Shown here one piece after another: positions 1 to 25,562 of a stretch of 26,894 nucleotides of DNA. A model generated the notes under the pieces. It saw only the letters and a list, made by a program, of their open reading frames with translations. It was not told where the DNA came from and searched no databases. Made by a program: the position numbers and the translations under genes. This DNA comes from a virus, in the IMG/VR virus record IMGVR_UViG_3300025168_000541, positions 1-26,894 of that record; one strand, given 5' to 3'. Every line of letters begins with the position of its first letter. Position 1 is the stretch's first letter.

Positions 1-105
1 ACACCCACATGAATCACCAAAGATTTTTTTGATTGCTCCTTTTATTCCTGTTTTTGTGGTGATGGAATCAATTGTGTCACCAAGTCCTTTGTTAGTTTTT
101 GCCAT
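1..105 (-). CDS. Small CxC-motif phage protein, 3' end outside window (partial)
   Basis: An ATG at 105-103 opens a frame that stays open to the window edge (35 residues visible). It begins MAKTNKGLGDTIDSITTK and reaches IFGDSCGC at the edge. A short protein with a GLGDTI...TGIK start followed by a CGC motif is, from memory, a common small conserved protein of Bacteroidota phages with no assigned function; the cysteines could bind metal. It overlaps the end of the sigma-like gene by 14 bases, as is usual here. The frame is intact across the seven-base homopolymer at 24-30. Only the N-terminus is seen, so the family assignment is tentative. Confidence 0.6.
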   Translation of the reverse strand, partial: MAKTNKGLGDTIDSITTKTGIKGAIKKIFGDSCGC

Positions 106-655
106 GAAATATTTTTTTTACTTTTTTAATTGACGCATAGAGTGTGTTCCTGTTGATACCTGTGTCTTTTGACATTTTATTGAGTGAATAAGACTTTCCC
201 ATTTGGAAATAGATTCTGAACACTTCTGAATCAAACCAATGAATCTCTTTCAATGTTTTGTTCACTCTTTCAATGTCCTTTTCAAGTTGAATTTTGAGTT
301 TCACACCATCATCATCAATCATTCTATGCACTCGGCTTGGTGTGTTGTTGATATAATATTCATTCCAACAATTAAGAACAAATCTTTCATCTTTGTCTTG
401 ATAATATTTTCTGTATTTTTTGAAAAAAGGTGATGTTTTTGAATGATATTGGTTGACCATGATTCTTGCAATCCAAAAAATGAGTTGATTATTGTCAATT
501 AATGTTTCAATTTTTGTTTTGTCACTGTCATACAAAGCAATAATGGTATCATGCAACAAGTCATCTGTGTCATTCTTTTTGTTGCTTGTGATTTTAGATG
601 AAATTTCTTTCAATTTGTCATAGTTTTTTTCAATGTATTTATTGAGTTTATACAT
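92..655 (-). CDS. Sigma-70-like / HTH transcription regulator
   Basis: This protein of about 187 residues looks like the small sigma-like regulators of Flavobacteriia phages. The N-terminal part has an acidic DDLLHDTIIALYD stretch resembling sigma region 2, followed by an aromatic/basic segment (FWIARIMVNQYH). The C-terminus (MSKDTGINRNTLYASIKKVKK) reads as a helix-turn-helix resembling region 4. I infer that it redirects host RNA polymerase, perhaps to late genes, since it sits near the end of the early block. ATG 655 is preferred over a TTG at 688, which only increases the overlap with the upstream gene. Sequence similarity to true sigma factors is weak, so it could be another HTH protein. 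Confidence 0.6.
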   Translation of the reverse strand: MYKLNKYIEKNYDKLKEISSKITSNKKNDTDDLLHDTIIALYDSDKTKIETLIDNNQLIFWIARIMVNQYHSKTSPFFKKYRKYYQDKDERFVLNCWNEYYINNTPSRVHRMIDDDGVKLKIQLEKDIERVNKTLKEIHWFDSEVFRIYFQMGKSYSLNKMSKDTGINRNTLYASIKKVKKIFHGKN

Positions 656-933
656 TGGATAATGTTTGGAACACCACACAACTTGCAAAGGTCGTATTCA
701 GTTTTTGACAAATGATCTGTTTCAAATTCAACAATGTTTTGTGTTTCATTTATTTTTTTATAAATATATTTTTCAATCTTATTGTCTTTTTTTAGATTTC
801 TAAATATATAGTTTTTTTCAATCAATTGATTATCATGCAAATAGATTATTTTGAACAATAGATTGTTAGTATCATGATAGTCATGAAACAATCTTTCTTT
901 TCTGCTATTAAAAAAAGTCATTTTTGTTTTCAT
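610..933 (-). CDS. Hypothetical protein, 107 aa
   Basis: I do not recognise this protein. It is basic, rich in Lys, Asn and Ile, and has an N-terminal half with HDYHDTNN and a C-terminus with a CKLCGVPNIIQC cysteine cluster that could bind metal. Its ATG (933-931) overlaps the stop of the VRR-NUC gene in an ATGA junction, which supports both the start and translational coupling. Its end overlaps the start of the sigma-like gene by 46 bases. The context is the early/replication operon. Confidence 0.6.
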   Translation of the reverse strand: MKTKMTFFNSRKERLFHDYHDTNNLLFKIIYLHDNQLIEKNYIFRNLKKDNKIEKYIYKKINETQNIVEFETDHLSKTEYDLCKLCGVPNIIQCINSINTLKKTMTN

Positions 934-4212: not shown

Positions 4213-4242
4213 CTAATATACACAATATTTTGAATATATCAA
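4213..4242 (-). promoter_or_regulatory. Candidate early promoter (TTG-N19-TATATTAG)
   Basis: On the minus strand TTG (4242-4240) is followed after 19 bases by TATATTAG (4220-4213), one mismatch from the Bacteroidota -7 consensus TAnnTTTG. It lies in the 109-base gap (4190-4298) between the lysis/phosphoesterase genes and the early block, 24 bases before the first early ATG. I see no convincing terminator in that gap, so read-through from the late operon may also occur. Confidence 0.5.
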
Positions 4243-4298
4243 TAAAACTTTATAAATAATAAAAATATTTTAATTCAACAGATAGAGGTTTTCTGCAA

Positions 4299-10003: not shown

Positions 10004-10131
10004 TTTTTTAAAAAATATTTATTCAAAAAGTCTGGTGCAGAATCATTTATTGTTTTCATTTCATTGTCATTTAACAAATTGAAATCTCCAACAATTATCA
10101 AACCCTCATATTCCTTTTTTAGTTCCCACAT
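10000..10131 (-). CDS. Small hypothetical protein, 43 aa
   Basis: I chose ATG 10131, giving a 43-residue product (MWELKKEYEGLIIVGDF then DFLNKYFLKK), over the longer frame starting at 10188, because the latter overlaps the upstream gene by 83 bases. The stop TGA overlaps the next ATG (ATGA), which supports translation. The YEGLIIVG...LL.D pattern and terminal hydrophobic helix resemble tiny conserved proteins in structural regions of Bacteroidota phages whose role is unknown. Confidence 0.6.
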   Translation of the reverse strand: MWELKKEYEGLIIVGDFNLLNDNEMKTINDSAPDFLNKYFLKK

Positions 10132-10276
10132 CTTTCTTTGCTTTTTTTGGTGTTTCAAAATACTTGTTTCCATACCTTTCTTTGACATATTGCAATTGAT
10201 GTTGGTTCATCTTTCCAAGAGCATATCTCATTGGTTTAATTATAGTGTTTTTGTGTTCTTCTTTTAGTATTAACAT
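10106..10276 (-). CDS. Small hypothetical protein, 56 aa
   Basis: The start at ATG 10276 (MLILKEEHKNTIIKPMRYAL) fits better than the longer frame from 10336, whose first 20 residues would be encoded by the terminator and its A/T-rich flank. The basic product, ending FETPKKAKKDVGTKKGI, is unrecognised. It lies seven bases downstream of the conserved 15-base motif at 10284-10298 and overlaps the following small gene by 26 bases. It is the first gene after a strong terminator and so may begin its own transcript. Confidence 0.6.
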   Translation of the reverse strand: MLILKEEHKNTIIKPMRYALGKMNQHQLQYVKERYGNKYFETPKKAKKDVGTKKGI

Positions 10277-10283
10277 GTGATTG

Positions 10284-10298
10284 TTTTTTATAAATATA
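10284..10298 (-). repeat. Conserved 15-bp leader motif, copy 1
   Basis: TATATTTATAAAAAA on the minus strand, ending seven bases before ATG 10276. The match with the copy at 13612-13626 extends to 19 bases (adding CAAT). See the copies at 13612-13626 and 22556-22570. Confidence 0.75.
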
Positions 10299-10318
10299 AA
10301 TATACTTGTTTTGTTTAT

Positions 10319-10349
10319 AAAAAAAAAGGCAACCATATTTGATTGCCTT
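10319..10349 (-). terminator. Rho-independent terminator after the capsid/tail-tube genes
   Basis: On the minus strand AAGGCAA (10349-10343) pairs with TTGCCTT (10332-10326), with two further possible pairs inside the loop, followed by an uninterrupted nine-T run overlapping the stem end (10327-10319). It lies 30 bases after the stop of the tail-tube-like gene and before the small gene at 10276. The strongest terminator seen in the window; it would end the abundant capsid transcript. Confidence 0.85.
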
Positions 10350-10378
10350 CTTTCACAAAAATAGAAAACTGATATTTC

Positions 10379-10987
10379 TTAATAAGTTCCTGCAGTAATT
10401 GTGATATTTTCATTTGTTGTCAATCCATCAAATGGATAATTTGTTGTTCCAACTCCTGCACTTGGAAACACTTCATAGTTCTCAGTCTCTTGACCTGTGA
10501 ATGTTAATGTAAAACCACTCATGTCTGCCTTTGCAGTTCCAGTTGACATTGCACCTGCAGTCACATCAAGACCAAATCTTGTGCCTAATAAGAACACATT
10601 GTCATTTGCATCAAGAACCCATGCTTGAACTCTGCCCTTTAGTATTGTATCTAAATGATGCAAGTCCTCTGGGTGTATCTTTTGCAATACTACTTCAAGA
10701 ACTTGTTCATAATATGTTGTGCCTTGAACAGGGTCAGAGGTCATGTTTGCAGTGTATGAACTTGTATTAGGTCGCAAATCAAATTTAAAAGTTGCAACAT
10801 CTGGTGTTGATGTTATGTCTGTGATTTGATTAACCAAAGAGGCAGAACCAAATGATAATTTTGAAAGCAAGTCTGCATCATATACATTCAAATATATTGT
10901 TTGTATTCCACCAATTGCATCTTTGCAATCCAATAACCTGCCATCATTAACTGCACACGCAAAATTGTATTTTTTATTTTTAGCCAT
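10379..10987 (-). CDS. Putative major tail tube / virion structural protein
   Basis: A 202-residue protein with a Cys-containing N-terminus (FACAVNDGRLLDCKDAIGGI), a middle YYEQVLEVVLQKI helix and strands around VQAWVLDANDNVFLLGTRFG, ending with FTLTFTGQETENYEVFP. This pattern matches an abundant virion protein conserved among Bacteroidota phages and looks like a tail-tube fold (TFTG.E near the C-terminus). It follows the major capsid gene and sits between two hairpins, consistent with high expression. Tail tube versus capsid-associated protein cannot be settled from sequence alone. Confidence 0.6.
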   Translation of the reverse strand: MAKNKKYNFACAVNDGRLLDCKDAIGGIQTIYLNVYDADLLSKLSFGSASLVNQITDITSTPDVATFKFDLRPNTSSYTANMTSDPVQGTTYYEQVLEVVLQKIHPEDLHHLDTILKGRVQAWVLDANDNVFLLGTRFGLDVTAGAMSTGTAKADMSGFTLTFTGQETENYEVFPSAGVGTTNYPFDGLTTNENITITAGTY

Positions 10988-11007
10988 TCTTATGTATTAA
11001 AGTGTTA

Positions 11008-11032
11008 AAAGGGTGACATAAAGCCACCCTTT
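11008..11032 (-). terminator. Hairpin after the major capsid gene (attenuator or 3'-end stabiliser)
   Basis: AAAGGGTG (11008-11015) and CACCCTTT (11025-11032) form a perfect eight-base stem with a nine-base loop, in the gap between the capsid and tail-tube genes. On the minus strand only a short T-run (TTTT) follows, so it may be a leaky terminator or protect the 3' end of the capsid mRNA. Confidence 0.65.
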
Positions 11033-11044
11033 AAAATTCATTTA

Positions 11045-11971
11045 TTATGAGTAAAGAACAATGTCAGAACCAAACCCATGTTGAACACCTGCACTGAATC
11101 TCATTCCAATTCTCACATTGTCACTCATGTCTTGGTCAGTCATGTCAAGAACTCGCACTTCACTTGTTGAACCACTTGTTCCAAAGAATAGATTTGATAT
11201 TCTTGCACAAATCATTGTGTCATCTGCCATTCCAGGCGCATGAGCAAGTGTCACTCCATTGAAAGATAAAGCAAACTCACTACCCATGTTGTATGTTTGA
11301 GCAAAACCAAGTGTTGCTTGTGCTTGAATGTAGAATTTCCAAATTGATGTTGGAACATACAATCTTAAATCTTCTTTTCCATATACTGTATTTGGTAAAG
11401 CATCAAGAACTTTTTGCATTTCTGCAACAACATTTCCTGCGTTTACTGTTGTTCCTGTAACATCAACAACATCTGCATCTGCTAATAGATTTACTTTCAT
11501 TCCTGCAAAAGAACCTGCACCGATTGCACCATTCCAGATGTTTGTTTCAATCTCACCTGCAACTTGTTCTGCAGTTACACCAATTAAGTAATCAGTGAAA
11601 GATATTGGCAATCTGCCATCAAGACCTGCAGTCATGTTTAAACCCTCCCATGTTGGAATAAAGTCTTTCTTGCAAAGTTCTAAATTTACTGCTAATAATT
11701 TTGGTTCTAAGACTGCCTCTGTATATGACATGTCTGTTGCAGTGCTAAAGTCACAACCTGCATCAATCATTACATTTCCACTTGTAGGAACTGCAATCTT
11801 TCGCACATTAGTTTTGTATCTAACATTATTTAACAATGTGATATTTCCCTCTGCAAGTGTTGTTCCAGAAAGGATACTTGCACTTATATAACCCTCTGCC
11901 TCAGTTCCCACAAAGTTTGATGTGATAGTGTCTGCAAAGTTGTATTTTTTCAAATTATAATTTTTTGCCAT
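11045..11971 (-). CDS. Major capsid protein (HK97 fold)
   Basis: A 308-residue protein with the features of an HK97-fold capsid protein: an N-terminal arm, a beta-rich E-loop-like stretch (residues about 35-75, ILSGTTLAEGNITLL and VRYKTNVRKIAVP), the P-domain helices LPISFTDYLIGVTAEQVAGE and NVVAEMQKVLDALP, and an A-domain ending RFSAGVQHGFGSDIVLYS. Length is within the usual range. It lies directly after the scaffold-like gene and the prohead protease and is followed by a hairpin. Alanine codons are almost all GCA, an indicator of strong codon bias in the virion genes. Confidence 0.82.
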   Translation of the reverse strand: MAKNYNLKKYNFADTITSNFVGTEAEGYISASILSGTTLAEGNITLLNNVRYKTNVRKIAVPTSGNVMIDAGCDFSTATDMSYTEAVLEPKLLAVNLELCKKDFIPTWEGLNMTAGLDGRLPISFTDYLIGVTAEQVAGEIETNIWNGAIGAGSFAGMKVNLLADADVVDVTGTTVNAGNVVAEMQKVLDALPNTVYGKEDLRLYVPTSIWKFYIQAQATLGFAQTYNMGSEFALSFNGVTLAHAPGMADDTMICARISNLFFGTSGSTSEVRVLDMTDQDMSDNVRIGMRFSAGVQHGFGSDIVLYS

Positions 11972-11984
11972 TTTGATAGTTTTT

Positions 11985-12593
11985 TTATTTATTTAAATTT
12001 CTAATGTGATATGCAACTCGTTCTTTTGTTGACATCTTTGATAGGTTCATTCTTGGTTCTCTTGATTCGTTTGGTCTAACATTTAAACCATCACTTGAGG
12101 GTGTTTCTTCTATTGCTGAAAGTTTTGTTTCAAGGTCGTTGATCTTAGTCAACATCTCACCCATAACATCAGTTGACATTTCAACTTCATTGTCACCACC
12201 ATCTTTTTCTTTTTTAAGGTCTGCAACTGCATCTTCAAGATTTTGTATTCTTTTTTCCATTCCCTCCCAGTCCTCAACAACTGCAAGTTCTTCAACAACT
12301 TCTTCTTTCACTTCTTCTTCAACAACTGCATCTTCTTCACCATATCCTGCAATCTTTGATTCTGCATCAATACGCAATTTTGTTCCATCTTGTAGTGTAT
12401 ATATATTTTCTGGTAAGTTTTCAACTTCACCTGCATCATTGATGACATACACTTCTGCACCAACATCAAAGGCATCAGAATCAGTTGCAATAACTCTTGC
12501 ATCATCTAAGATTGCTTCTGCATACATATTGATTCTGTATGATTTTTTTTTGCTGAACTTCAAAAGTTCTTGAATTTTTTTAATTGAACTCAT
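11985..12593 (-). CDS. Scaffold-like acidic coiled-coil protein
   Basis: A 202-residue, very acidic protein. The N-terminus (SIKKIQELLKFSKKKSYRINMYAEA) is basic, followed by a compact domain and then a Glu/Val-rich stretch (EEEVKEEVVEELAVVEDWEGMEKR) and a coiled coil (NLEDAVADLKKEKD and MLTKINDLETKLSAIEE). The C-terminus is basic (ERVAYHIRNLNK). Acidic coiled coils between a prohead protease and a capsid gene are typical of scaffolding proteins. No sequence family is recognised, so the role comes from position and composition. Confidence 0.65.
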   Translation of the reverse strand: MSSIKKIQELLKFSKKKSYRINMYAEAILDDARVIATDSDAFDVGAEVYVINDAGEVENLPENIYTLQDGTKLRIDAESKIAGYGEEDAVVEEEVKEEVVEELAVVEDWEGMEKRIQNLEDAVADLKKEKDGGDNEVEMSTDVMGEMLTKINDLETKLSAIEETPSSDGLNVRPNESREPRMNLSKMSTKERVAYHIRNLNK

Positions 12594-12646
12594 AATTGCG
12601 TTTTTATTTTTTATATATATTATTATTGATGATTTGTTTATTTTCG

Positions 12647-13603
12647 TTATTTATTTTTGATAGAACCACACACCTTTTCTGCAATCTCTCTTGAACCATA
12701 TTCTGCCATCTGGTCAGAGATACACTTATCCCAATCATAAGATGCAAGGTCTTTTGTTGCATATTTTGTTTTATATTTTGCACTTTTATATTGAACTTTT
12801 TTCTTTCTTCTTTTCATGATTTCTTCATGAGATTTGCAACCCATATAATACACAGAACCATCAATGTCATGTTGATGTGAACCAATACAGTCAAAGAATA
12901 ATTGTCCATACAATTCTGCCTTTTCAATATCTTTGTATATTGGTGTTCCATCAAGTGTTTTGTCTGGTGTCAATTCTGCATCTAACAACACAGACTTGAT
13001 TTCTTCTAGCACCTCAGCTTGTCCACAATCAACACATTCTTCTGCAAGATCTAAGATGTCCGTTTTTTGCATTTGTTCAATGGAATCAACAAAATAACCT
13101 TCAATTGAATATCCTTTTATATCACCACTTTTCACTTGTTTCCACACATCATCATTGTCAATTTTCATCTTAATAAACCATGAGCCAATTGGAATGTCAG
13201 AAAAACCATATAAATTTGACTTGTCATTCTTATCTTCTTTTATCCATGTTTCAATCACACTCACACCATCAACTTCATTTTCATGTTGTATTGTTGCGTT
13301 GTTGTTTTTTAATCCTTTCATGAACAATTCTTGTGCCTTTTCAATTGTTTCTTTTGAAAAGTAAACCATGTAATCTTCACCAGTTTCAGAATTATATCTG
13401 GCAATTTTTTTGTCTGGAATAAGTGCAACACCAATCAAAATCTTTTTTTCATCATCTAGTTTTGCCAATGAAAGAAAATTGTCTTTATTTAATGCCACAA
13501 ACCCTCTTTGAATTGCAGGTTCTTGAACAAGTGAAATTGCTTGAATTCCAAAGATTTCCTCTGTTTCATCAATTATTAATTCTATGATTTTTGGTGTTTT
13601 CAT
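12647..13603 (-). CDS. XkdF-like prohead serine protease
   Basis: A 318-residue protein of the phage XkdF-like protease type. The domain at 50-175 reads LIGVALIPDKKIAR, DYMVYFSKETIEKAQELFM, NATIQHE (His107), YGFSDIPIGSWFIKMKI and VKSGDIKGYSIEGYF (Ser166), consistent with a His/Ser catalytic site used to mature capsid proteins. A separate C-terminal module of about 30 residues (YDWDKCISDQMAEYGSREIA then a second Cys) is appended. The gene starts eight bases after a conserved leader motif at 13612-13626 and opens the head module. No frameshift is seen. Confidence 0.78.
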   Translation of the reverse strand: MKTPKIIELIIDETEEIFGIQAISLVQEPAIQRGFVALNKDNFLSLAKLDDEKKILIGVALIPDKKIARYNSETGEDYMVYFSKETIEKAQELFMKGLKNNNATIQHENEVDGVSVIETWIKEDKNDKSNLYGFSDIPIGSWFIKMKIDNDDVWKQVKSGDIKGYSIEGYFVDSIEQMQKTDILDLAEECVDCGQAEVLEEIKSVLLDAELTPDKTLDGTPIYKDIEKAELYGQLFFDCIGSHQHDIDGSVYYMGCKSHEEIMKRRKKKVQYKSAKYKTKYATKDLASYDWDKCISDQMAEYGSREIAEKVCGSIKNK

Positions 13604-13611
13604 TTATATTG

Positions 13612-13626
13612 TTTTTTATAAATATA
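13612..13626 (-). repeat. Conserved 15-bp leader motif, copy 2
   Basis: TATATTTATAAAAAA on the minus strand, followed by CAAT as in copy 1, ending eight bases before ATG 13603 of the protease gene, in a 39-base gap after the tape measure gene. Confidence 0.75.
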
Positions 13627-13642
13627 TTAATGTGCTATTTGT

Positions 13643-15298
13643 TTATAATGTTGTTTGCATTTCAACTTCCTGTTGCAGTGTTTGTGCATTGGTGATTTCG
13701 TTTTCAACCACATATGCTTGAATTGGTGGTGTGTCACCACCATCTGCAAATGTTTCTGTCAATTGATTTGGTATCATGTTTTGAAGTGTTCCAACCAAAC
13801 CACTTGTGTTCTCTGGTGGTGGTGGTGTATTTCCACCACTGTCTGGTGATGGTGGTGTTGTTGTGTCATCTGCTGTTTTTAGAATGTTTTTCACTGCACC
13901 CATTCCTTGCAACATGGTTGTCCCTGCAACTACAAAATTGAATGGTGCAGGGACATTTGCAAGTGCATTTGTCACACCAAGATATGTGTTTCGGATTGCG
14001 TTTGCAACTGCAATTCCTTTCCCAATTTTTGAATTTTCACCAAGTAGTCCCGTGATTGCACCAAGACCATCTTGAACCATTTTTTCTTTTGATTCTTGTG
14101 TAAGTTTTTCAACATTTTCTTCTTTCTTTGCATAAGTTTTGTTTATTCCAAGAACTTGTGCATCATATTTTTCAGTGAGTTTTGCAGTGTCTTGTCCATA
14201 TTTTTCTGCTAAAACAAGAAGTGCATCATATTGTGTTTTTGCTTGGTCAAGTTCAAGTTCATGTTTTGAAAGATTTGAGATTCTCAAAAGTTCAAGTTCT
14301 GTCACCGCAATTTCTTGGTCTTTGATTGCTTTGTCATCTGCAATTTTTTGCAATGCATCTGCCTTTTTTTCTTCGGCAATTCTTGAGTTTTCAATTGCTT
14401 GTTTTTCTTGGTCTAATTTTGTGACCGCCTCTTTTCTAATTGAATTGATTTTGTTGTTTAATTCAATTTGTTTTGTGAATGATTCTTGTTTGATATTTGC
14501 AAGAGCAATTTCAAGTTCTGTCAATTTTTCTTTGTCTTCTTCTAGGTTTTCTGACAATGCCATTTCTTCAACTTGTATCCGCACACTTTCTTCTGCATTT
14601 GCAACCCTTTTTGCCAAAAGGTCATTTTCAATTTCAAATGCTCTTTCTGATGCAATCAACCTTTCTTCTGTTGCTTTGCTTTGATCCTCTGCAATCAACT
14701 TCAATTGTTCCACTTCTGCTCTCCTTTGTGCAGTTTCCAGATTGATTTCCCTTTCCGCTTTTCTAAGTGCAATTGCAGATTTAGTTAAATCACTCATTAA
14801 TTTGACATCATTAGATATTTCATCACCTATCCCTTTGAAAGAATCTTTCATGTCTTGCAAACCCTCTTTGCCTTTGCCTGTGAATAACTTGATTAAACCA
14901 CCACCAAATGCAGACATTCGGTCTTTTAGAACACTAAATGTTGCACCAATTTTGGTCATTATGATTTCAAGTTTTTCAGCACCTTTCTGTGTGCTTGTGA
15001 AAGAAGAAATCAAAGTTCCAACAATCACAACAAATGCACCAATTCCTGTTGCTATAAGTCCAACCCTTATTGATGTGAACATCAATTTTGATGCAGTCAT
15101 CACCGCTTTGAAATTTTTCTTTAAACCACCGACTGTCATTCCAAATGCACCAAATGAATCAATCAATTCACCTTGTTCTTTTTTAAGATCTGCCTCCTCT
15201 TTTTTTGCTTTCTTAATAGCCTCAGCAAGTTTGTCAACTTCTTTCTTTCCTTTCTCTGCGCCTTTTACATTAATATTAACATCTACTTCTTCAGCCAT
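13643..15298 (-). CDS. Tail tape measure protein
   Basis: A 551-residue protein. The N-terminus is charged and helical (KKEVDKLAEAIKKAKKEEADLKKE), followed by a hydrophobic helix with Gly (about 74-100, SIRVGLIATGIGAFVVIVGTL), a long coiled coil (about 170-400) and a hydrophobic C-terminal portion with AIRNTYLGVTNALANVPAPF, found in other tape measure proteins. A Pro-rich linker (TTPPSPDSGGNTPPPPEN) lies near 480-500. At 551 residues it is short; at about 1.5 angstrom per residue a tail of roughly 80 nm would be expected. No lysozyme or peptidase domain is seen in it. Confidence 0.82.
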   Translation of the reverse strand: MAEEVDVNINVKGAEKGKKEVDKLAEAIKKAKKEEADLKKEQGELIDSFGAFGMTVGGLKKNFKAVMTASKLMFTSIRVGLIATGIGAFVVIVGTLISSFTSTQKGAEKLEIIMTKIGATFSVLKDRMSAFGGGLIKLFTGKGKEGLQDMKDSFKGIGDEISNDVKLMSDLTKSAIALRKAEREINLETAQRRAEVEQLKLIAEDQSKATEERLIASERAFEIENDLLAKRVANAEESVRIQVEEMALSENLEEDKEKLTELEIALANIKQESFTKQIELNNKINSIRKEAVTKLDQEKQAIENSRIAEEKKADALQKIADDKAIKDQEIAVTELELLRISNLSKHELELDQAKTQYDALLVLAEKYGQDTAKLTEKYDAQVLGINKTYAKKEENVEKLTQESKEKMVQDGLGAITGLLGENSKIGKGIAVANAIRNTYLGVTNALANVPAPFNFVVAGTTMLQGMGAVKNILKTADDTTTPPSPDSGGNTPPPPENTSGLVGTLQNMIPNQLTETFADGGDTPPIQAYVVENEITNAQTLQQEVEMQTTL

Positions 15299-15465
15299 AA
15301 TAGTCTTTTAATTTCATTAAACATTCGTTTTAAACTTGTGTGTCTTTCATTGTGACCATACAAGAACATGTATTCTTTTTGACCATGCAATTCAAATTCA
15401 TTGATTGCTTTGAGTTGTGCCATCATTGACAAACCCATTGCGTTGATATATTTTTTTAATTCCAT
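15283..15465 (-). CDS. Small hypothetical tail-region protein, 60 aa
   Basis: I prefer ATG 15465 (MELKKYINAMGLSMMAQLK) to the GTG at 15513, which would overlap the upstream gene by 58 bases. The product is basic and helical, with YMFLYGHNERH in the middle. It overlaps the tape measure start by 16 bases and the upstream gene by 10, implying coupled translation. The place, directly before the tape measure gene, is where tail chaperones usually sit, but this sequence does not resemble one. Confidence 0.55.
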   Translation of the reverse strand: MELKKYINAMGLSMMAQLKAINEFELHGQKEYMFLYGHNERHTSLKRMFNEIKRLLWLKK

Positions 15466-16181
15466 AGTAATTGATCGTAATTTTGAAACAATAAAGGTGA
15501 ACCATTCTGCCACAATGCCCCACCGCTTTCACCACCTTGATGAAGTCTATGTTCATTTAATACAAAAGTGACTTGTGATGTCCATTCTGTGATTCTTTCC
15601 CCTGTGTTTTTTATAAGCAAACCAACACTTTCTGCGGTTGTTCTTTTGGCTGATGTTGATGATGTGTCATTGTAATTAATATAAACAGAGGGTGTTCCAA
15701 CATTAGAATCTGAAAACCTTGTCACATGAACACCACCTGCAGATCCAATTTGAGTGACACCAGATTCAGTGATCTTGAACAATGTTTCTGAATCTATTTT
15801 GAAACAATTTCCAATTCCACCATCTGTTCCACCAACAATGATTCCTTGTGTTTCTAATTTAATAGAAAAACAACCAGTGAATTTTGGTGCATAGTAATAA
15901 TTTAAAGAACTATTTCCAACCCTTAACACATTAGAACTTGTTTTTGTTGTTCTGCCAAACATAGAAACAGACTGTGTTTCTGAATAGATTGGTGGTGTTT
16001 GGGTGTTTGGTGTGAAAGTGGAAGTTTGGGTTGTCAAACTACTTTCAACCTGTGGAAGTCTTGCTTGTTGATTGACAGAGTTTCCAAATGATGACTGAAA
16101 CTTTCCATTGTTATTTTGACCACCTTGTTGTTTGGTGATTTTTAAAATTTCGCCACTTGTTAATTTTTTTCTAATTGCCAT
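15456..16181 (-). CDS. Virion-associated hypothetical protein, 241 aa
   Basis: Residues 1-85 are Gln/Asn/Ser/Thr-rich and probably disordered (QQGGQNNNGKFQSSFGN). The remainder is beta-rich with short repeating strands: CFSIKLETQGIIVGG, CFKIDSETLFKITESGV, GVHVTRFSDSN. This resembles the shafts of phage tail fibres or tip proteins. It lies between the large baseplate-type gene and the tape measure gene. No family is recognised, and the tail tip role is an inference. Confidence 0.55.
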   Translation of the reverse strand: MAIRKKLTSGEILKITKQQGGQNNNGKFQSSFGNSVNQQARLPQVESSLTTQTSTFTPNTQTPPIYSETQSVSMFGRTTKTSSNVLRVGNSSLNYYYAPKFTGCFSIKLETQGIIVGGTDGGIGNCFKIDSETLFKITESGVTQIGSAGGVHVTRFSDSNVGTPSVYINYNDTSSTSAKRTTAESVGLLIKNTGERITEWTSQVTFVLNEHRLHQGGESGGALWQNGSPLLFQNYDQLLWN

Positions 16182-16192
16182 AATAAATATAT

Positions 16193-19129
16193 TTATCCCT
16201 CAACGAAACCACTTGTATTGCCATCTGAGTTGGTGCCATCAATAATTGGATTGTTACAAATTGCATTTCCACCAAATTCAGTATATGAATATCCAAACGC
16301 AATGCAACATTCTGCAGGAACTAAGAAAGTTTCCGTTATGTTGTCATTTGCATCAATCCAAATCACTGTGTCTGTGTTTCCATAATAGCCTCCAGATGGA
16401 TAATAGTTGCAACCAACATCATCATTCAATTGACTGACTGCATCAATAATTTTCACAAGTTTAACTTTCACACTTGCACCGATTCCTGCTTGATAATTTT
16501 GGATTGATATAACCCTCCAAAACGCATCTTTCACAAAGATTGAATCATTAAATTCAAATTGTGAAATATCAATTTCATCAAGCATGAAATAAGCAATCAT
16601 AATTCTTGATGATGTATTGTATAATTGTGAAATATAGTTTGCCCAGTATAGATTGAAAAATGTGTTTGATAATGATGAAGAATATCCAAATGGAATGTTT
16701 CCAGAACCAAAATTGAATGATTGTCCCCACCTCAATGCTTTGGTGTTTGCGTTCATACCAGTTGTTCCACTTGGTTCTGTCAATGACCTGTCAATATTAA
16801 ACGCACTACAAAGTGGATATTCATTCACACCAACAAGTGATGCAATTCCAAAATGAAAATAGATATTATAATCACTATTATTTGGAACAGGCAATTCAAC
16901 AGGTCTACCACCATAATAGAACAATTTTGGTTTTGTTGCAGGAAAGGTCAAGTTTCCATCATCATCATAACTGTATCCTCTATGAACCAAGATTCTTTCT
17001 GCTGATAAATCAACATCTGATGAAGTCAAAGAAATAGGTGTTTCTTCAACAATGTAAGGTGAAAAGATAGATTCATTTTTTAATGTCTTTCCAGAATTGT
17101 AATTGCTTGAATTATAAATCATATCAAACCGACCATGTGGACTGTTTGATGAATTGAAATCATTGACAAATTTGTTCATGAAATCAACATCTGGCAAATC
17201 TGACAAATGAATTTCTTTGAAACGCATTGATGTTGTCGGTTCATTGATTATTTCTTTTGATGTGTCCAATTTGTCTGTCCATAATTTTATTGAACTATTT
17301 GTTGACAAAAAGTCATTCATGGGTTCAATAATCAAATTGCTTGAATCTTCCTCATTTGTTTTGATTACTAGATTGAACCTGTCTGTCAAGTCTTTCAAAA
17401 GTCCTTTTTGTGACAATGATGGATCAATGCAATTTTGAATATTAATATCTTGCAACATTGTATTGTCATATTGTGATGGTGCGCCATTAATGGTGATAGT
17501 TGTCACACAGTCCACATCATTCACTTGACCAACATATTGTGATGGTTTCCCTAGCAACACCACAATGTTTCCTGCAACCGCCTCAAAACCCCCTGTGCCA
17601 ATGTTAATGACATCATTAGTTGCAGGATTAACCGCAACAACATGAGCCATGATTGTCACTTTTGTTCCAGAAGGTATTGCATAATTTGTGTTAGTTACAA
17701 AAGGAATAGATGGTTGAAAGTCACCATCTGGATATGAAGAACCATCACTGAAATTAATGTTGTTTCTGACACTATCAAAACCACCAAAAGATGATTGATT
17801 TGCAAGAGTGTTTACACCATTAACTTGTGATGCGCCAACAATTTTTGTTGGTGAACTTTGACCATAAACAAGACCATCTTCACCCACAATTTGATAAATC
17901 ACACCAACATTTGACCGCCAATTGTTAACACCAAGTGTTGCAGTTGTTGAATCATCATCTAGTGGTGTGACTAAATCTCCACTGATTTGTTCACAAACTA
18001 CTGAAACATTTGTGTTGATATTAACTTGAAGTTGATTTGTGGTGCATGTGGTTTGAACTTCTATATACATTCCATCAACAATTGTTGCCATGTTTCCCTC
18101 TGCTTGTTGTGGTGGTTCTAGACTTAATGAACCATCATTCCAAGTTAAATTTTGATATGTTTGTGTTGATGTTTCAATTGCTCTCAACATGGGTGTTCCT
18201 GCCAAAGGATTGCTCAGATATGCAGATTGATTAAAAAACATTGCCCTCATGTCTGTATATCCAAATTGTCCCCATGATGGGGTTGAACCAACTTCTGTTG
18301 AAACTATTGATGGTGATGAACCTTGTCCCTCTAAGTGGTTGCAAGTGGTCATGTATAATTTCCTAAAATAAACAGAATCAAAAAAGTTTGATGTCCATGT
18401 ATATCCATTTGTGATGAACATTCTTTCCAAAAGTGTTCTAATTTGAATTGCAGGTTTTTGTTCCGTTAACTTCAAAGAGTTTGTTGGTGCCATTAGGAAA
18501 GAATCAATTGAACCATCTTCAAGTTCGTATTCAAATTCTTCAGTCAAAGTTGAATTGTTTAAATAGTCATTTTCTTGCCAGATCATTGGTGCTGATGCTG
18601 ATGTGATTGGATACACTATTTTTGAACAGTCTGCAACTGTATCATCAAAATTTGCACCCATTGTGTTGTTCCATGATGCTTGAATTGTGCTTGTGTTGAA
18701 AACATGGTTCAAATCTGTGTATCCTGCAAATGCTGAACTTAATGTCTTTTGACCTAACGCGCTGAACAAGTTTGCAACACTACTCAACAATATGACATCA
18801 TAATGTTTTGATTTATTGAAACTACCTTTTAATTGCAAGAAACCTGTGAATTGTTTGACATCATTAACAAACAATGATGCATTGTTTTCTGTTATTGTTG
18901 AAAACCCATTTTCTATATATATAGTATTCGCATTATTCCAATCTTGAAAATATGCATTGTTATTGTCTGTGAAAGGCAACTTGAATGTTTGTGAATAACT
19001 TGATTGTTTGGAGGCAGGATCTTTGATGTCAGTGAAGTTAAAATTCAATGATATATTTGGGAAACTTAATAAGTCCAAAGGATACGAAACTCCATTTCTA
19101 TATGCAACAAGTCTGATTGTCTGTGCCAT
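16193..19129 (-). CDS. Large tail/baseplate hub-like protein
   Basis: A 978-residue protein. The start (RLVAYRNGVSYPLDLL then FTDIKDPASKQSSYSQTFKL) matches a conserved N-terminal module of large tail-tip proteins of Bacteroidota phages. A central region (KGLLKDLTDRFNLVIKTNEE then NLIIEPMNDFLSTN and WTDKLDTSKEI) recalls the hub domain, where a jelly-roll-like ring joins the tail tube to the fibres. The C-terminus has a Cys-rich segment (CNYYPSGGYYG, PAECCIAFGYS). It shares a base with the previous stop (TAATG). Hub versus other distal protein cannot be decided here. Confidence 0.65.
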   Translation of the reverse strand: MAQTIRLVAYRNGVSYPLDLLSFPNISLNFNFTDIKDPASKQSSYSQTFKLPFTDNNNAYFQDWNNANTIYIENGFSTITENNASLFVNDVKQFTGFLQLKGSFNKSKHYDVILLSSVANLFSALGQKTLSSAFAGYTDLNHVFNTSTIQASWNNTMGANFDDTVADCSKIVYPITSASAPMIWQENDYLNNSTLTEEFEYELEDGSIDSFLMAPTNSLKLTEQKPAIQIRTLLERMFITNGYTWTSNFFDSVYFRKLYMTTCNHLEGQGSSPSIVSTEVGSTPSWGQFGYTDMRAMFFNQSAYLSNPLAGTPMLRAIETSTQTYQNLTWNDGSLSLEPPQQAEGNMATIVDGMYIEVQTTCTTNQLQVNINTNVSVVCEQISGDLVTPLDDDSTTATLGVNNWRSNVGVIYQIVGEDGLVYGQSSPTKIVGASQVNGVNTLANQSSFGGFDSVRNNINFSDGSSYPDGDFQPSIPFVTNTNYAIPSGTKVTIMAHVVAVNPATNDVINIGTGGFEAVAGNIVVLLGKPSQYVGQVNDVDCVTTITINGAPSQYDNTMLQDINIQNCIDPSLSQKGLLKDLTDRFNLVIKTNEEDSSNLIIEPMNDFLSTNSSIKLWTDKLDTSKEIINEPTTSMRFKEIHLSDLPDVDFMNKFVNDFNSSNSPHGRFDMIYNSSNYNSGKTLKNESIFSPYIVEETPISLTSSDVDLSAERILVHRGYSYDDDGNLTFPATKPKLFYYGGRPVELPVPNNSDYNIYFHFGIASLVGVNEYPLCSAFNIDRSLTEPSGTTGMNANTKALRWGQSFNFGSGNIPFGYSSSLSNTFFNLYWANYISQLYNTSSRIMIAYFMLDEIDISQFEFNDSIFVKDAFWRVISIQNYQAGIGASVKVKLVKIIDAVSQLNDDVGCNYYPSGGYYGNTDTVIWIDANDNITETFLVPAECCIAFGYSYTEFGGNAICNNPIIDGTNSDGNTSGFVEG

Positions 19130-20607
19130 TAGTTATTATTATTTAATGAATTTGAATATTCAATTTCAAATGTATATTGAATTTGCAACCTATCCTTTCC
19201 TTTTTCTTTCATCACAAATGATTTGTTTGAAATGATAACCGATTGTGAAACAGGAACAACAGAACCAGATTCAATTATCATCACATTGTTTGATTGAAAC
19301 AAACTTTCCAAAAACACACTTTCTTCTTGTGTGATAAATTGAGTTGTTAATGTTGATTTCAATTTTGATGTGGTGTTGTATGTTCTTGTTCCGCCTTGCC
19401 AATTTTGATAGTCAAATGAATTTCCAGAATCTAATGATTCAGAACCAATCAATTCACTGTAATTCATTCTGTCACTTGCAATTGTCTGTGTTTGTCCTGC
19501 ATTGAAATTGAAATAATCCCAACCACCAACACTGTTTGACCAACCAAGCCTAACAATATTGGCTCCTTTGCAATTTTCATTTCCAACAAAATCTTTCACA
19601 AAATAATAAGTTACACTTTTAAATGCAAACGCACTGTTTTTAAATACAATTGTATAATATGACCACCCCACATTTGCACTGTCAGATGGGTTTGCATCTG
19701 TGTCAATTGTTTGATTTTCAAGGTTCCCAGTTCCAACACCTGCAAAAAGTAAAAATTCAGAATCAATGGTTGCTGATGTCGGAACTTGTCCACCATTTGT
19801 TGCGTTTTGACTGATTGTTGTTGTGCTTAGTTGCAAACCATCTTTGTCAAAATATGTGACTATCATTTTTGTAATATCAGAACCCCAACCACTCTTGTTC
19901 ATGAAACCTAGTATGTGATAATCGGTTAATGAATTTAGATAATTGATGCGACCATTTAAGATTGCACCACCACCAATTTCTTTGTTTTGATGTCTAGTGT
20001 CATTGAATGTTTCTGTAAGGTCAGAAAAAGCCAATGATGTGATTGATGAACCATTGTAATATGAAACAAGTGGGTTTGTTATTGATGAATATTCAAATGT
20101 TCCAAATGATGAAAGCGAAAAATACATGGACAAAGTGACAGGTGAACTAGTTTGTTCAATTGGTGCGGATTCTGATGTTGTTGCATACTCATAGGTTGCT
20201 TTGACAACAATGGTTCTGATTGTATTGTCATTTAATGAAAACAATGTTGCAGGTGCATTCACTCCGATTTTGTGAATCTCTTTTGAGGTTGCATTTGAGT
20301 TTTTGAAAGTTGCTTGTAATTGAGTGTTCACAATACTCCTTAAATCAAAAATAGCATTGGAATTTGTGGTTGTTGAAAACATGTTTGGTGACTGTCTAAG
20401 TGTTGCAAGTATATTTGCATCAACCACCGCATTTGCATAAATTCTTAAAATAAACCTAAATTTAAACCATGATGAAATATCTGATGATTGCTTGACAACT
20501 ATGGGTGCAATCGGTTTCCAATTTATTGGCAAGGGTGAATCTTCTGTTTGTGTTCCTGTAAGTGTAACAGTTTCTTGTGGTGGTATTTGAATGATTGATA
20601 GTGCCAT
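19129..20607 (-). CDS. Tail/baseplate structural protein, 492 aa
   Basis: A 492-residue beta-rich protein, starting IIQIPPQETVTLTGTQ with an early FKFRFILRIYA strand. Towards the C-terminus it has IVRLGWSNSVGGWDYFNF, a motif I associate with conserved distal tail proteins of Bacteroidota phages, followed by VVPVSQSVIISNKSFVMKE. The C-terminal part may be a Dit-like ring domain, to which the next gene's hub attaches. The gene lies between the tail completion protein and the hub-like protein, which supports a baseplate role. The exact family is not proven. Confidence 0.6.
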   Translation of the reverse strand: MALSIIQIPPQETVTLTGTQTEDSPLPINWKPIAPIVVKQSSDISSWFKFRFILRIYANAVVDANILATLRQSPNMFSTTTNSNAIFDLRSIVNTQLQATFKNSNATSKEIHKIGVNAPATLFSLNDNTIRTIVVKATYEYATTSESAPIEQTSSPVTLSMYFSLSSFGTFEYSSITNPLVSYYNGSSITSLAFSDLTETFNDTRHQNKEIGGGAILNGRINYLNSLTDYHILGFMNKSGWGSDITKMIVTYFDKDGLQLSTTTISQNATNGGQVPTSATIDSEFLLFAGVGTGNLENQTIDTDANPSDSANVGWSYYTIVFKNSAFAFKSVTYYFVKDFVGNENCKGANIVRLGWSNSVGGWDYFNFNAGQTQTIASDRMNYSELIGSESLDSGNSFDYQNWQGGTRTYNTTSKLKSTLTTQFITQEESVFLESLFQSNNVMIIESGSVVPVSQSVIISNKSFVMKEKGKDRLQIQYTFEIEYSNSLNNNN

Positions 20608-20609
20608 AA

Positions 20610-21215
20610 TTAAACGAAATAATCTTCTGTTTTTAAATTCTCAACAAGGTCTTTTGCATAAGACTTTCCAAGATTGATTGTCAACTCTTTGATGTTTTTT
20701 TTAAGTGTTATTGAAAAGAAACCCGTTCCTGCAATAGAATTATATGAACCACCTTGTCCAAGTCCTTGTCTATATATAGCAATTGCAATTGCCATTTTCA
20801 AACTCTGTCTTGAAACAAACCGACCTTTTGCATCTCTTGTTTCTTCTGGTAATTTTTGAACTGTCCACCTATCAATTGCACTTGGATTGATCATCTTAAA
20901 GTTTCCAGAGAATGAAGGTGTTTTATTGAAACCAAATATTGACTTTGCAAAGGCACTTTGTTGACCTTGCAATTGTGTTTTCATTTTTAATGGTTTGCCA
21001 TTCTTGAATTTTTGCCCTGTTCCTTTCACACCCATATCCACAAAGGCAAGTGCAAGTGGCATTGTGAATGTAAGTTTTAATTTTTTGTCAAAACTACCAA
21101 GAACAGTTGAAGTGATTTCATCTGCAAGGCTTGAACCTTTTGCCTTTTTTTTTGTGTCTGCTATTTGTTTTTTTGCAAACCCCTGCATCACTCTGATTGA
21201 ATTTTCAAATGCCAT
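20610..21215 (-). CDS. Tail completion / HK97 gp10-like protein
   Basis: A 201-residue basic protein with conserved-looking GVKGTGQKFKNGKPLKMK and DAKGRFVSRQSLKMAIAIAI segments, followed by GTGFFSITLKKNIKEL. Proteins with this GRFVSRxSL..AIA pattern lie near tail genes in Bacteroidota phages and probably complete the tail or the neck, like the HK97 gp10 group. It overlaps the previous gene at a TAATG junction and is followed after two bases by the baseplate gene. Confidence 0.55.
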   Translation of the reverse strand: MAFENSIRVMQGFAKKQIADTKKKAKGSSLADEITSTVLGSFDKKLKLTFTMPLALAFVDMGVKGTGQKFKNGKPLKMKTQLQGQQSAFAKSIFGFNKTPSFSGNFKMINPSAIDRWTVQKLPEETRDAKGRFVSRQSLKMAIAIAIYRQGLGQGGSYNSIAGTGFFSITLKKNIKELTINLGKSYAKDLVENLKTEDYFV

Positions 21216-21760
21216 TATGAATTAGGTGTTATTGGAACAATGCAAAGATTGTTGTCGTTATTAACTACAATTGAAAATGAACCAGACCAACCACACAACA
21301 TGTTTGAAAACCTTGCATTGAATGGTGTCAATGTTATAGGTAAAACAATGTCTGTTCTACTGTCTGCCCATGATGTTGATTGTGTTGCTTGTCTGAATTC
21401 TGCAATCACATCTTTCATGATTTGTAATGTATTTGAATACGCATCATCAACTGCATTAGAATAAATACTTTGATATTGATTTGCAATTGTTCCTGTGTCA
21501 AGTCCTTCATTGTTTTCAATGATTCTGTCTGCAACTATAATGTCAAATGTGTATGTCAATGTTCCAATGTCAACTGTTGCAGGTTGTGGTTCTGCATATA
21601 ACAATGGAAATCTTATTGAATCAAGTTTTTCAATATCCACATTATCAAGTTGACCAGAATTAAATGATTGCAATTGCAAGTGATTTTGTGCAATTGTTCT
21701 GAATGTATCAACAATGTTTCTGAATGTGATGTTGTTTTTTGAGTTGTATATATTAGCCAT
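21215..21760 (-). CDS. Putative tail terminator-like protein
   Basis: A 181-residue protein with an N-terminal helix (NIVDTFRTIAQNHLQLQSF), strands around RFPLLYAEPQPATVDIGTLTYTFDIIV, and a helix with DDAYSNTLQIMKDVIAEFRQ before beta strands LPITLTPFNARFSNMLCGW. The alternation of helix, central sheet and a C-terminal sheet matches the small alpha/beta fold of tail terminators, which cap the tail tube. The gene starts at a TAATG junction with the frameshift extension. Assignment rests on predicted topology and position. Confidence 0.5.
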   Translation of the reverse strand: MANIYNSKNNITFRNIVDTFRTIAQNHLQLQSFNSGQLDNVDIEKLDSIRFPLLYAEPQPATVDIGTLTYTFDIIVADRIIENNEGLDTGTIANQYQSIYSNAVDDAYSNTLQIMKDVIAEFRQATQSTSWADSRTDIVLPITLTPFNARFSNMLCGWSGSFSIVVNNDNNLCIVPITPNS

Positions 21761-22041
21761 TATGCAATTTGATTTGGGTTAGATTGTTTTTTTTCAAGAA
21801 TGAATTTGTCTTGTTTATAAGACAAGAATGTCAATGCTTGATACAATTTCAATTCAGTTACTTTGTCCATGTTTAAAATATTGCCATTTGCTAATTCATA
21901 TATTATTGGATACCATTTCCATTTTTCTTGATACCTTGTTTCTGTTGTCACTCTCCTTTCATTTGGTTTGCCCTCATTTTGAACTACTTGAGTTTTGCCA
22001 AATATTTGTTGAAATCTCTTGAAAGTGGTTCGCCTAAAGCA
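21760..22041 (-). CDS. -1 frame extension of the tail assembly chaperone (frameshift product C-terminus)
   Basis: Read in the -1 frame relative to the gene above it, the sequence is open from the slippery run to TAA at 21762-21760, giving 93 residues that start CFRRTTFKRFQQIFGKTQ and continue with KWKWYPIIYELANGNILNMD. The stretch from 21951 is usually taken as a separate GTG-started ORF of 63 residues, but the reading frame stays open for 144 bases upstream of that GTG and beyond the slippery run, and the first ATG is far inside. A WYPIIYELA motif is typical of the C-terminal extension of phage tail chaperones. The joined protein would have 265 residues. Confidence 0.75.
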   Translation of the reverse strand, partial: CFRRTTFKRFQQIFGKTQVVQNEGKPNERRVTTETRYQEKWKWYPIIYELANGNILNMDKVTELKLYQALTFLSYKQDKFILEKKQSNPNQIA

Positions 22042-22556
22042 AAAAAAAAACTTAACACACCAAGAACATTGTGCATTGGAAAGGATAAGAACAATTCATC
22101 ATTTTCTGGTGTTGGTGAGTATGGTTCAATTGTGTATCTTTCAAACCTATCAACATCATCAATTATTGGTCTATATAGTATTGCCATCACTTTGTGCAAG
22201 TTTTTCATCATATCATCTTCACAGTATGTTTCAAGGTCAACAAATTCACCTGTGGTCATGTTTGATAAGTTTGGAATAATTGCATATTTTCTTTTGTTAA
22301 ACATGATATTTTTTTCAATTTGTTGTTCTGTGTGTTCTGTGTCAATCATTTTAATGATTATACTATAAATGCGTTTTAAGTCTTTTAAACCAATTTGTTT
22401 CGTTTCCTTTGTGTTTATATTACAAAAGATTGAAACACTACCAATCATCTTCTTTTCGTTACTCTTGTCCGATTCAATCAATTCCATAAATCTTTGGTAT
22501 TGTTGGATTGTGACATCTTTCCAATTGTTTGGAACACTTAATTTCAATTTCTTCAT
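21984..22556 (-). CDS. Tail assembly chaperone-like protein (short form)
   Basis: A 190-residue protein beginning MKKLKLSVPNNWKDVTIQQY, with helices QRFMELIESD, KDLKRIYSIIIKMI, then RKYAIIPNLSNMTTGEFVDLETYC and the helix NLHKVMAILYRPI. This is a conserved Bacteroidota phage protein that I would place in the tail chaperone (G/GT-like) role. Near the end VLSFFFALG is encoded by ten T residues (22050-22041), and the normal reading gives 18 more residues to TAG. A -1 slip here yields the longer form with the extension at 21760-22041, as in lambda G/GT. The ATG is preceded directly by the conserved motif at 22556-22570. Confidence 0.7.
   Translation of the reverse strand: MKKLKLSVPNNWKDVTIQQYQRFMELIESDKSNEKKMIGSVSIFCNINTKETKQIGLKDLKRIYSIIIKMIDTEHTEQQIEKNIMFNKRKYAIIPNLSNMTTGEFVDLETYCEDDMMKNLHKVMAILYRPIIDDVDRFERYTIEPYSPTPENDELFLSFPMHNVLGVLSFFFALGEPLSRDFNKYLAKLK
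22041..22050 (-). other. Probable -1 slippery site (ten-T run)
   Basis: Minus-strand reading is AGT TTT TTT TTT GCT in the zero frame; a -1 step gives TTT TTT TTT TGC TTT AGG, which joins the open -1 frame. The run allows ribosomal slippage at T TTT TTT or RNA polymerase slippage. No strong downstream hairpin is obvious. Confidence 0.75.
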
Positions 22557-22570
22557 TTTTTATAAATATA
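22556..22570 (-). repeat. Conserved 15-bp leader motif, copy 3
   Basis: TATATTTATAAAAAA on the minus strand, with its last A being the A of ATG 22556, in the 30-base gap after the terminase gene. It is identical to copies 1 and 2, although it sits closer to the start codon. Confidence 0.75.
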
Positions 22571-22586
22571 AATATTTAATTTTTGT

Positions 22587-24827: not shown

Positions 24828-24839
24828 TTTGTTCCGTTT

Positions 24840-25562
24840 TTATACCGATTTTTTTATTTTATTATTTATTAATTCACAGAATTTTTGGCTTATTTCTGAA
24901 CCTATATAGTTTCTATTAGTCTTTATACACGCAAATGCAGTTGTGCCCGATCCCATATATGGATCAAAAATAATATCATTTTCGTTTGTGCAAGATAATA
25001 TGCAATTTAAAGGAATTTCAATTGGAAAGGGTGCTGAAAATTTATTTTTTCTATCAGGAGGAATTTCCCAAATACACTTATTGAATATTGCTTTTTTTCT
25101 ATCAAATTTAACTCTGCTTTTATTTGTTTTTTGAATCCAATATATATACTCTATAATTGGAAAAAAATAACTTTTATCTAATTTAGGTGTGTTTTTTCTG
25201 TTCCAAACTATAGTCTGTTTCACTGGAAAGTCATATATATATAATGGGTTTATTTCTTGGTGCAATTTTTGTATTGGTTGATGGTTGTAAAACAATGAAC
25301 CTGTAGGTTTTAAAATTCTTAAACATTCTTTTATAATTTTTTTTTGATTATTAATATAATCAATAGGTTCTAAACAATCAATAAATGTATCGTATTCAAT
25401 TCTCCTTGATTTAGTTTTAAATCCATTATTAATATTTCTATTACTTGACCAATAACCCTTATTGTATGGTGGACTTGTAACGATTAAATCAATATAATTA
25501 TCTGGTATTTTTGACATTGTTTTTAAACAATCTTCATTATATATATTATTTAATTTTATCAT
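24840..25562 (-). CDS. DNA amino-methyltransferase, SPPY type
   Basis: A 240-residue methyltransferase of the same beta-class layout, with TSPPYN (29-34) and FDPYMGSGTT near the C-terminus (199-208). SPPY in place of DPPY is common in N4-cytosine and some N6-adenine enzymes. The centre (QTIVWNRKNTPKLDKSYFFP) likely forms the target recognition part. The gene has conserved positions with the neighbouring 24096-24827 enzyme (for example TNRNYIG versus TNRNFIG) but overall divergence is high, so they probably recognise different sites. Confidence 0.85.
   Translation of the reverse strand: MIKLNNIYNEDCLKTMSKIPDNYIDLIVTSPPYNKGYWSSNRNINNGFKTKSRRIEYDTFIDCLEPIDYINNQKKIIKECLRILKPTGSLFYNHQPIQKLHQEINPLYIYDFPVKQTIVWNRKNTPKLDKSYFFPIIEYIYWIQKTNKSRVKFDRKKAIFNKCIWEIPPDRKNKFSAPFPIEIPLNCILSCTNENDIIFDPYMGSGTTAFACIKTNRNYIGSEISQKFCELINNKIKKSV

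Follow-up and report, generated by a model that had tools for sequence, protein, structure and literature searches.

A repeated 15-base motif as the downstream half of a probable two-box late promoter in an uncultured phage

What is the 15-base motif TATATTTATAAAAAA that recurs exactly in front of several genes of an uncultured virus? We examined it in the IMG/VR virus record IMGVR_UViG_3300025168_000541, all 26,894 bases of which make up the stretch analysed here (the window). The window has an A+T content of about 67%, and its main genes all lie on the minus strand in the order methylases, TerL, chaperone and tail genes, tape measure, protease, scaffold, capsid, portal and an early block whose last gene encodes a sigma-like protein. 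An initial annotation had placed the motif at 10284-10298, 13612-13626 and 22556-22570, with the first two copies extended by CAAT, ahead of a small gene (10106-10276), the prohead protease gene (12647-13603) and the tail chaperone gene (21984-22556), and all of this was confirmed. A fourth exact copy at 754-768 had been overlooked; all four are on the minus, that is, the coding strand. Judged by sequence comparison, the motif probably forms the -10 part of a phage late promoter with two boxes, [AG]ACAA[AT]-N11(12)-TATATTTAT(AAAAAA), of which the genome would carry four, with a phage sigma-like protein and the host RNA polymerase as its readers.

The 15-mer as first described was only the downstream part of the full element, [AG]ACAA[AT]-N11-TATATTTATAAAAAA, whose upstream box ACAAA had been missed. 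This box stands 11 bp ahead of the 15-mer at three sites and at the same distance ahead of the variant AATATATATAAAAAA at a fourth, which gives the following set of putative late promoters:

22556-22586, minus strand: late promoter of the tail chaperone gene; ACAAA at 22582-22586, N11 and TATATTTATAAAAAA at 22556-22570, an exact bipartite match; the chaperone ATG begins at 22556, the last base of the 15-mer
13612-13642, minus strand: late promoter of the prohead protease gene; ACAAA at 13638-13642, N11 and the 15-mer at 13612-13626; ATG at 13603
12607-12637, minus strand: late promoter of the scaffold-like gene; ACAAA at 12633-12637, N11 and the variant AATATATATAAAAAA at 12607-12621; ATG at 12593
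10284-10314, minus strand: late promoter after the capsid block; ACAAA at 10310-10314, N11 and the 15-mer at 10284-10298; ATG of the small gene 10106-10276 at 10276

Two near copies had also been proposed. The one at 12607-12621 does belong to the set, as the scaffold promoter, whereas the one at 4248-4258 in the early leader was excluded from it because ACAAA is absent there at the proper spacing. Recurrence by chance, for which the A+T-rich composition might speak, is refuted: dinucleotide-preserving shuffles of the window contained the exact 15-mer 0.002 times on average against four observed copies, bearing out the earlier impression of an excess, and the bipartite pattern ACAAA-N11-[AT]ATAT[AT]TATAAAAAA, present four times in the window, appeared in 0 of 500 shuffles. 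Conservation of orthologous sites in about 30 relatives points the same way.

These relatives came from a TerL search that matched about 33 viral contigs, with identities of 73-88%. The element was present in nearly all contigs of sufficient length and never on the opposite strand, and the whole records agreed; it was not found in the remaining TerL and capsid relatives (TerL at most 56% identical). About 30 uncultured relatives carry it at matching sites on the coding strand, and in 20 near-complete or long records the sites fall at four orthologous positions, including those ahead of the protease and after the capsid block. The variant AATATATATAAAAAA is kept at the scaffold site across relatives. 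At the chaperone site the element is likewise placed in nearly all relatives, including two with a methylase replacing TerL upstream. Where a different gene lies ahead of the chaperone (L041, L062/G023), it stays with the chaperone with ACGAA as its upstream box. A scan of all viral contigs for the bipartite pattern gave 76 stretches, many from the window's group and a few from more distant phages. The contig L235/G037 (19,857 bases; TerL about 40% identical) holds at least five copies of ACAA-N11/12-TATATTTA ahead of genes, which suggests a larger controlled gene set there.

The arrangement of the boxes was analysed in 26 genomes picked by TerL and motif; these are mutually related, include near-duplicates (G010/G013, G019/G021 and G008/G009), and their genes were called by a simple script. 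The gap between ACAAA and TATATTTA was 11 bp in 64 cases and 12 bp in 14, part of the latter being copies inside genes, with at most three cases at each other length from 0 to 40. Antisense pairs numbered two in all, one at 11 bp and one at 29. The spacer bases carry little information and have diverged at the four orthologous sites. By comparison, the distance from the start of the 15-mer to the ATG is 14 nt at the chaperone and about 20-28 nt at most other sites; at the protease it is 23 nt in main-clade genomes but 13-17 nt in the diverged clade. A fixed distance between boxes combined with a variable distance to the ATG (13-28 nt) is expected of a promoter and not of a ribosome leader. Furthermore, the motif is not equally frequent inside genes, a test that the initial annotation had set: sequence outside called genes makes up 6.7% of the total and holds 57 of the 70 15-mers on the coding strand, and those within genes mostly occupy one orthologous codon position or reflect a gene start called too early by the script.

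The initial annotation had left the choice between a phage-specific promoter element and a translation leader, the latter being an A-rich, unstructured 5' region that aids ribosome start in Bacteroidota, which do without Shine-Dalgarno sequences. A-rich bases right before the ATG would suit the Kozak-like starts of Flavobacterium (PMC6847099), and the AAAAAA tail may additionally serve such a role. However, it is the distance from ACAAA to TATATTTA that is fixed, and the tail is altered in G004, G017, G020 and G036 while both boxes are kept. Terminators bear on the same choice, the one in the window being:

10319-10347, minus strand: intrinsic terminator, GGCAATCAAATATGGTTGCC followed by T9, with a hairpin of -9.4 kcal/mol; it ends 4 nt ahead of ACAAA of the promoter after the capsid block

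In 17 of the 20 genomes this site has a hairpin followed by a T-run, the end of which lies 4-12 nt ahead of ACAAA. Terminators are likewise placed at the protease site in G002 and G020 and at the chaperone site in G002, and by eye G006 and G024 also have one at the protease site; the hairpin sequences vary between genomes and their placement is kept. With terminators just upstream, the downstream genes need a new transcription start, which argues for promoters and makes translation leaders very improbable. The sites might also bind another phage protein (a repressor, or one for packaging or replication) at module boundaries, since operators too typically show a fixed spacing of two boxes. Nevertheless, the single orientation, the constant position just ahead of a start codon and the location right behind terminators, a place that calls for a promoter, leave hardly any probability for this explanation. 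That the bipartite elements are promoters is strongly supported by the comparative evidence. Beside the terminator, the open reading frame called from 10336 (10106-10336, minus strand) begins within the hairpin; its true start is likely the ATG at 10276, just past the promoter.

Which factor would read such promoters? The candidate named by the initial annotation is encoded at the end of the early block:

95-655, minus strand: gene of the sigma-like protein, 187 amino acids, candidate promoter reader; stop codon at 92-94

Extracytoplasmic function (ECF) sigma factors contain only the regions sigma2 and sigma4 and are about 170-200 amino acids long. The sigma-like protein matched PHROG 1740 'RNA polymerase sigma factor' (E 3.8e-5), and its gene is present in every motif-bearing genome that covers the region. 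Its AlphaFold2 model (pLDDT 79, pTM 0.46) has two helical domains and an unreliable loop at 91-115. The top fold matches in the PDB were nearly all sigma factors, mostly ECF, with TM values of 0.78-0.80 for the -35-binding domain alone, and the viral fold matches included phage sigma-70 region 2 proteins (E 4e-6). A tblastn search of cultured phages with three sigma-like queries returned no match. The partnership proposed initially is plausible given the PHROG match, the ECF-like predicted fold and the conservation in motif-bearing genomes, and we consider the protein the likely reader of the late promoters, linked to them by association.

A cultured counterpart was found through the protease, by which Nonlabens phage P12024L, a marine flavophage, was the closest cultured phage. 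Its gene 35 adjoins a VRR-NUC gene a few genes before TerL, in the same synteny as in the window's clade, and scores above the Pfam cut-off for Sigma70_r2; hhalign of the sigma family profile against P12024L_35 gave a moderate match (probability 77, E 2e-5). The late genes of P12024L are preceded at seven places by ACAA-N14/15-CGTTAW, with the ATG 11-12 nt after CGT. In an unsupervised count CGTTAAT was the top 7-mer upstream of P12024L genes, and six of its eight genome copies lie at -11/-12. Promoters of ECF type follow AAC-N16/17-CGT, and those of the P12024L late genes have this arrangement as AAC-N17-CGT. When the ACAA boxes of the two are aligned, the motif of the window becomes AAC-N17-ATTTAT, which keeps the ECF spacing of 16-17 bp. 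At 22090 of P12024L (L251), a gene between the sigma-like gene and TerL also has the late box, with its ATG 11 nt after CGT; packaging genes may therefore be late in this phage as well.

Several observations weigh against the sigma-like protein as an ECF-type reader of the motif. Matches to Pfam Sigma70_r2 were weak, occurring in 6 of 25 family members and below the cut-off, and the whole-chain fold E-values were modest (best 0.013). The more distant G027-G031 encode sigma-like proteins of 29-31% identity and lack the window motif, and no clear bipartite motif emerged from a de novo search for 7-mers in more distant phages whose sigma-like protein is about 30% identical. G039 has a diverged sigma type yet the main-clade motif, and no clean co-variation of motif and sigma is seen within the clade. 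The -10 box differs as well, being ATTTAT in the window's clade in place of CGT, with CGTTAAT only in P12024L. The upstream box is AACAA at most sites, but the window and many relatives have GACAA ahead of the chaperone, giving GAC and not AAC.

The early genes carry a different, probably host-type promoter, the window's version being:

4213-4242, minus strand: probable host-type early promoter, TTG-N19-TATATTAG, in the early-gene leader; one mismatch to TAnnTTTG

The early leaders of G011, G015, G023 and G039 carry the canonical host element TATATTTG. Late sites have TATATTTA where early leaders have TATATTTG, so two promoter classes divide early from late genes. The late promoters could instead be read by host sigma-A, with TATATTTA as a TAnnTTTG -7 element having A for G at -5, a phage activator on ACAAA and the sigma-like protein employed otherwise. 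The box fits TAHHTTT, which spans -12 to -6 in the -7 consensus of flavobacteria, whose promoters are also known to have AT-rich blocks at -18 and -28 (PMC6847099). The sigma-A register, with TATATTTA at -12 to -5 and the start 4-5 nt later (PMC6847099), also yields a start at motif position 13, nearly the same as otherwise predicted. However, the orthologous late sites have A for the near-invariant G at -5, whereas TATATTTG is retained in the early leaders of several relatives; ACAAA lies 11 bp upstream, as against TTTG at -33 in Bacteroidota sigma-A promoters, and the leader is near zero at one site compared with 33 nt on average (PMC6847099). In addition, P12024L pairs the same ACAA box with CGTTAAT, which is no sigma-A element. 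We regard reading by host sigma-A as unlikely.

By either the ECF-like or the sigma-A-like register, we infer that transcripts start at motif position 13-16. Such a start would make the chaperone mRNA leaderless or nearly so, which would explain why the third copy touches the ATG. The initial annotation had called this contact awkward for a promoter and natural for a leader; the contact itself is real, and a predicted near-leaderless transcript accounts for it without a leader. We consider a near-leaderless start at the chaperone site rather likely; leaderless mRNAs are a minority of 5.5% in flavobacteria (PMC9723704).

Taken together, the preferred reading is a phage sigma switch. Host RNA polymerase would first transcribe the early operon (4189 to 92), in which the gene of the sigma-like protein comes last, from a host-type TAnnTTTG promoter. 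This protein would then join the host RNA polymerase and guide it to the four late promoters by ECF-type recognition geometry, with an AAC-like -35 box, 17 bp and then the -10 box. Late transcripts would be near-leaderless at the chaperone, beginning 0-3 nt from its ATG, and would begin about 7-15 nt from the start codons at the other sites. The window appears to belong to a virus of Bacteroidota-type bacteria in which this switch would turn on the particle-building genes late in infection; a TerL search of bacterial genome contigs for a host gave no match. The wider proposition seems evenly balanced to us: a widespread Bacteroidota phage family with ECF-like phage sigmas, a start codon at the transcript start and leaderless late mRNAs, in which the ACAA box would be kept over large divergence and the -10 box switched between CGTTAAT and the A+T-only ATTTATAA.

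Comparable systems have been described. In Salmonella phage 7-11, the sigma factor SaPh711_gp47 with host RNA polymerase reads late promoters GTAAtg-(16)-aCTA, as proven experimentally (PMC8948821). The window resembles it in having several copies of a two-box element with a spacer near 16-17 bp before late and structural genes, a phage-encoded sigma (here a candidate) acting with host RNA polymerase, and host-type early promoters; relatives of 7-11, like those of the window, have differing boxes at similar genome positions (PMC8948821). Unlike the window's predicted system, that of 7-11 uses the boxes GTAAtg and aCTA, has an enterobacterial host and is experimentally proven (PMC8948821). The middle and late promoters of phiEco32 (tAATGTAtA, read by sigma gp36) share the phage sigma, the late genes and starts 6-8 bp past the box, but consist of a single box without a -35 element (PMC8948821), whereas the window has a conserved upstream box. 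ECF-type promoters, including SM6 of Flavobacterium psychrophilum, which has a CGT box (PMC9723704), agree in the 17 bp and, at the sites with AACAA, in an AAC-like upstream box. No promoter motifs of Bacteroidota phages were found in the literature searched. The kind of system is thus known from phages 7-11 and phiEco32 (PMC8948821), while neither this family nor its boxes seem to have been described in that literature.

This amounts to a concrete predicted transcription programme for an uncultured phage group, and it connects a phage protein that had no annotation with the sites it likely targets. The nearest cultured relative found has its host among the marine Flavobacteriia, and phage promoters in that host group seem undescribed in the literature searched. 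ATTTAT and CGTTAAT behind the same box offer a natural comparison for shifts in sigma specificity, the predicted leaderless late mRNAs bear on ribosome start in bacteria without Shine-Dalgarno sequences, and the element can help to mark out late operons when such genomes are annotated.

The T4 late promoter TATAAATA, read by gp55, is another late phage element made only of A and T, as in the window. Unlike in T4, the letters TATAAATA occur only on the non-coding strand of the window, and a T4-like element on that strand was dropped since no genes are transcribed in that direction; no T4-like clamp-dependent system was seen in the window, though none was specifically looked for.

The remaining exact copy of the 15-mer lies inside a gene:

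754-768, minus strand: fourth exact 15-mer, within gene 610-933, where it codes for YIYKK; probably no promoter

Its upstream box is ACAAT at N12, and it follows the codons. In relatives ACAA is present where the Asp codon is GAC and absent where it is GAT; the YIYKK codons and the small protein are conserved. An autoregulatory promoter of the sigma-like gene was rejected on account of this codon-dependent ACAA and the N12 spacing, and the copy is probably a coding coincidence with possible weak activity. The same gene (610-933, minus strand) lies upstream of the sigma-like gene, and its codons GAT ACT AAC AAT (DTNN) are nearly fixed in about 22 orthologs; ACT and AAC are minority codons, yet near-invariant here, and the stretch may hide a DNA or RNA element.

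A further conserved sequence, TCGGTATAAAAACGGAA, is found at 24832-24848 (minus strand), just ahead of the start codon of a methylase gene in the window. In many relatives it directly precedes the small terminase gene, with at most one copy per genome, and it may be a site for packaging or represent a third class of promoter.

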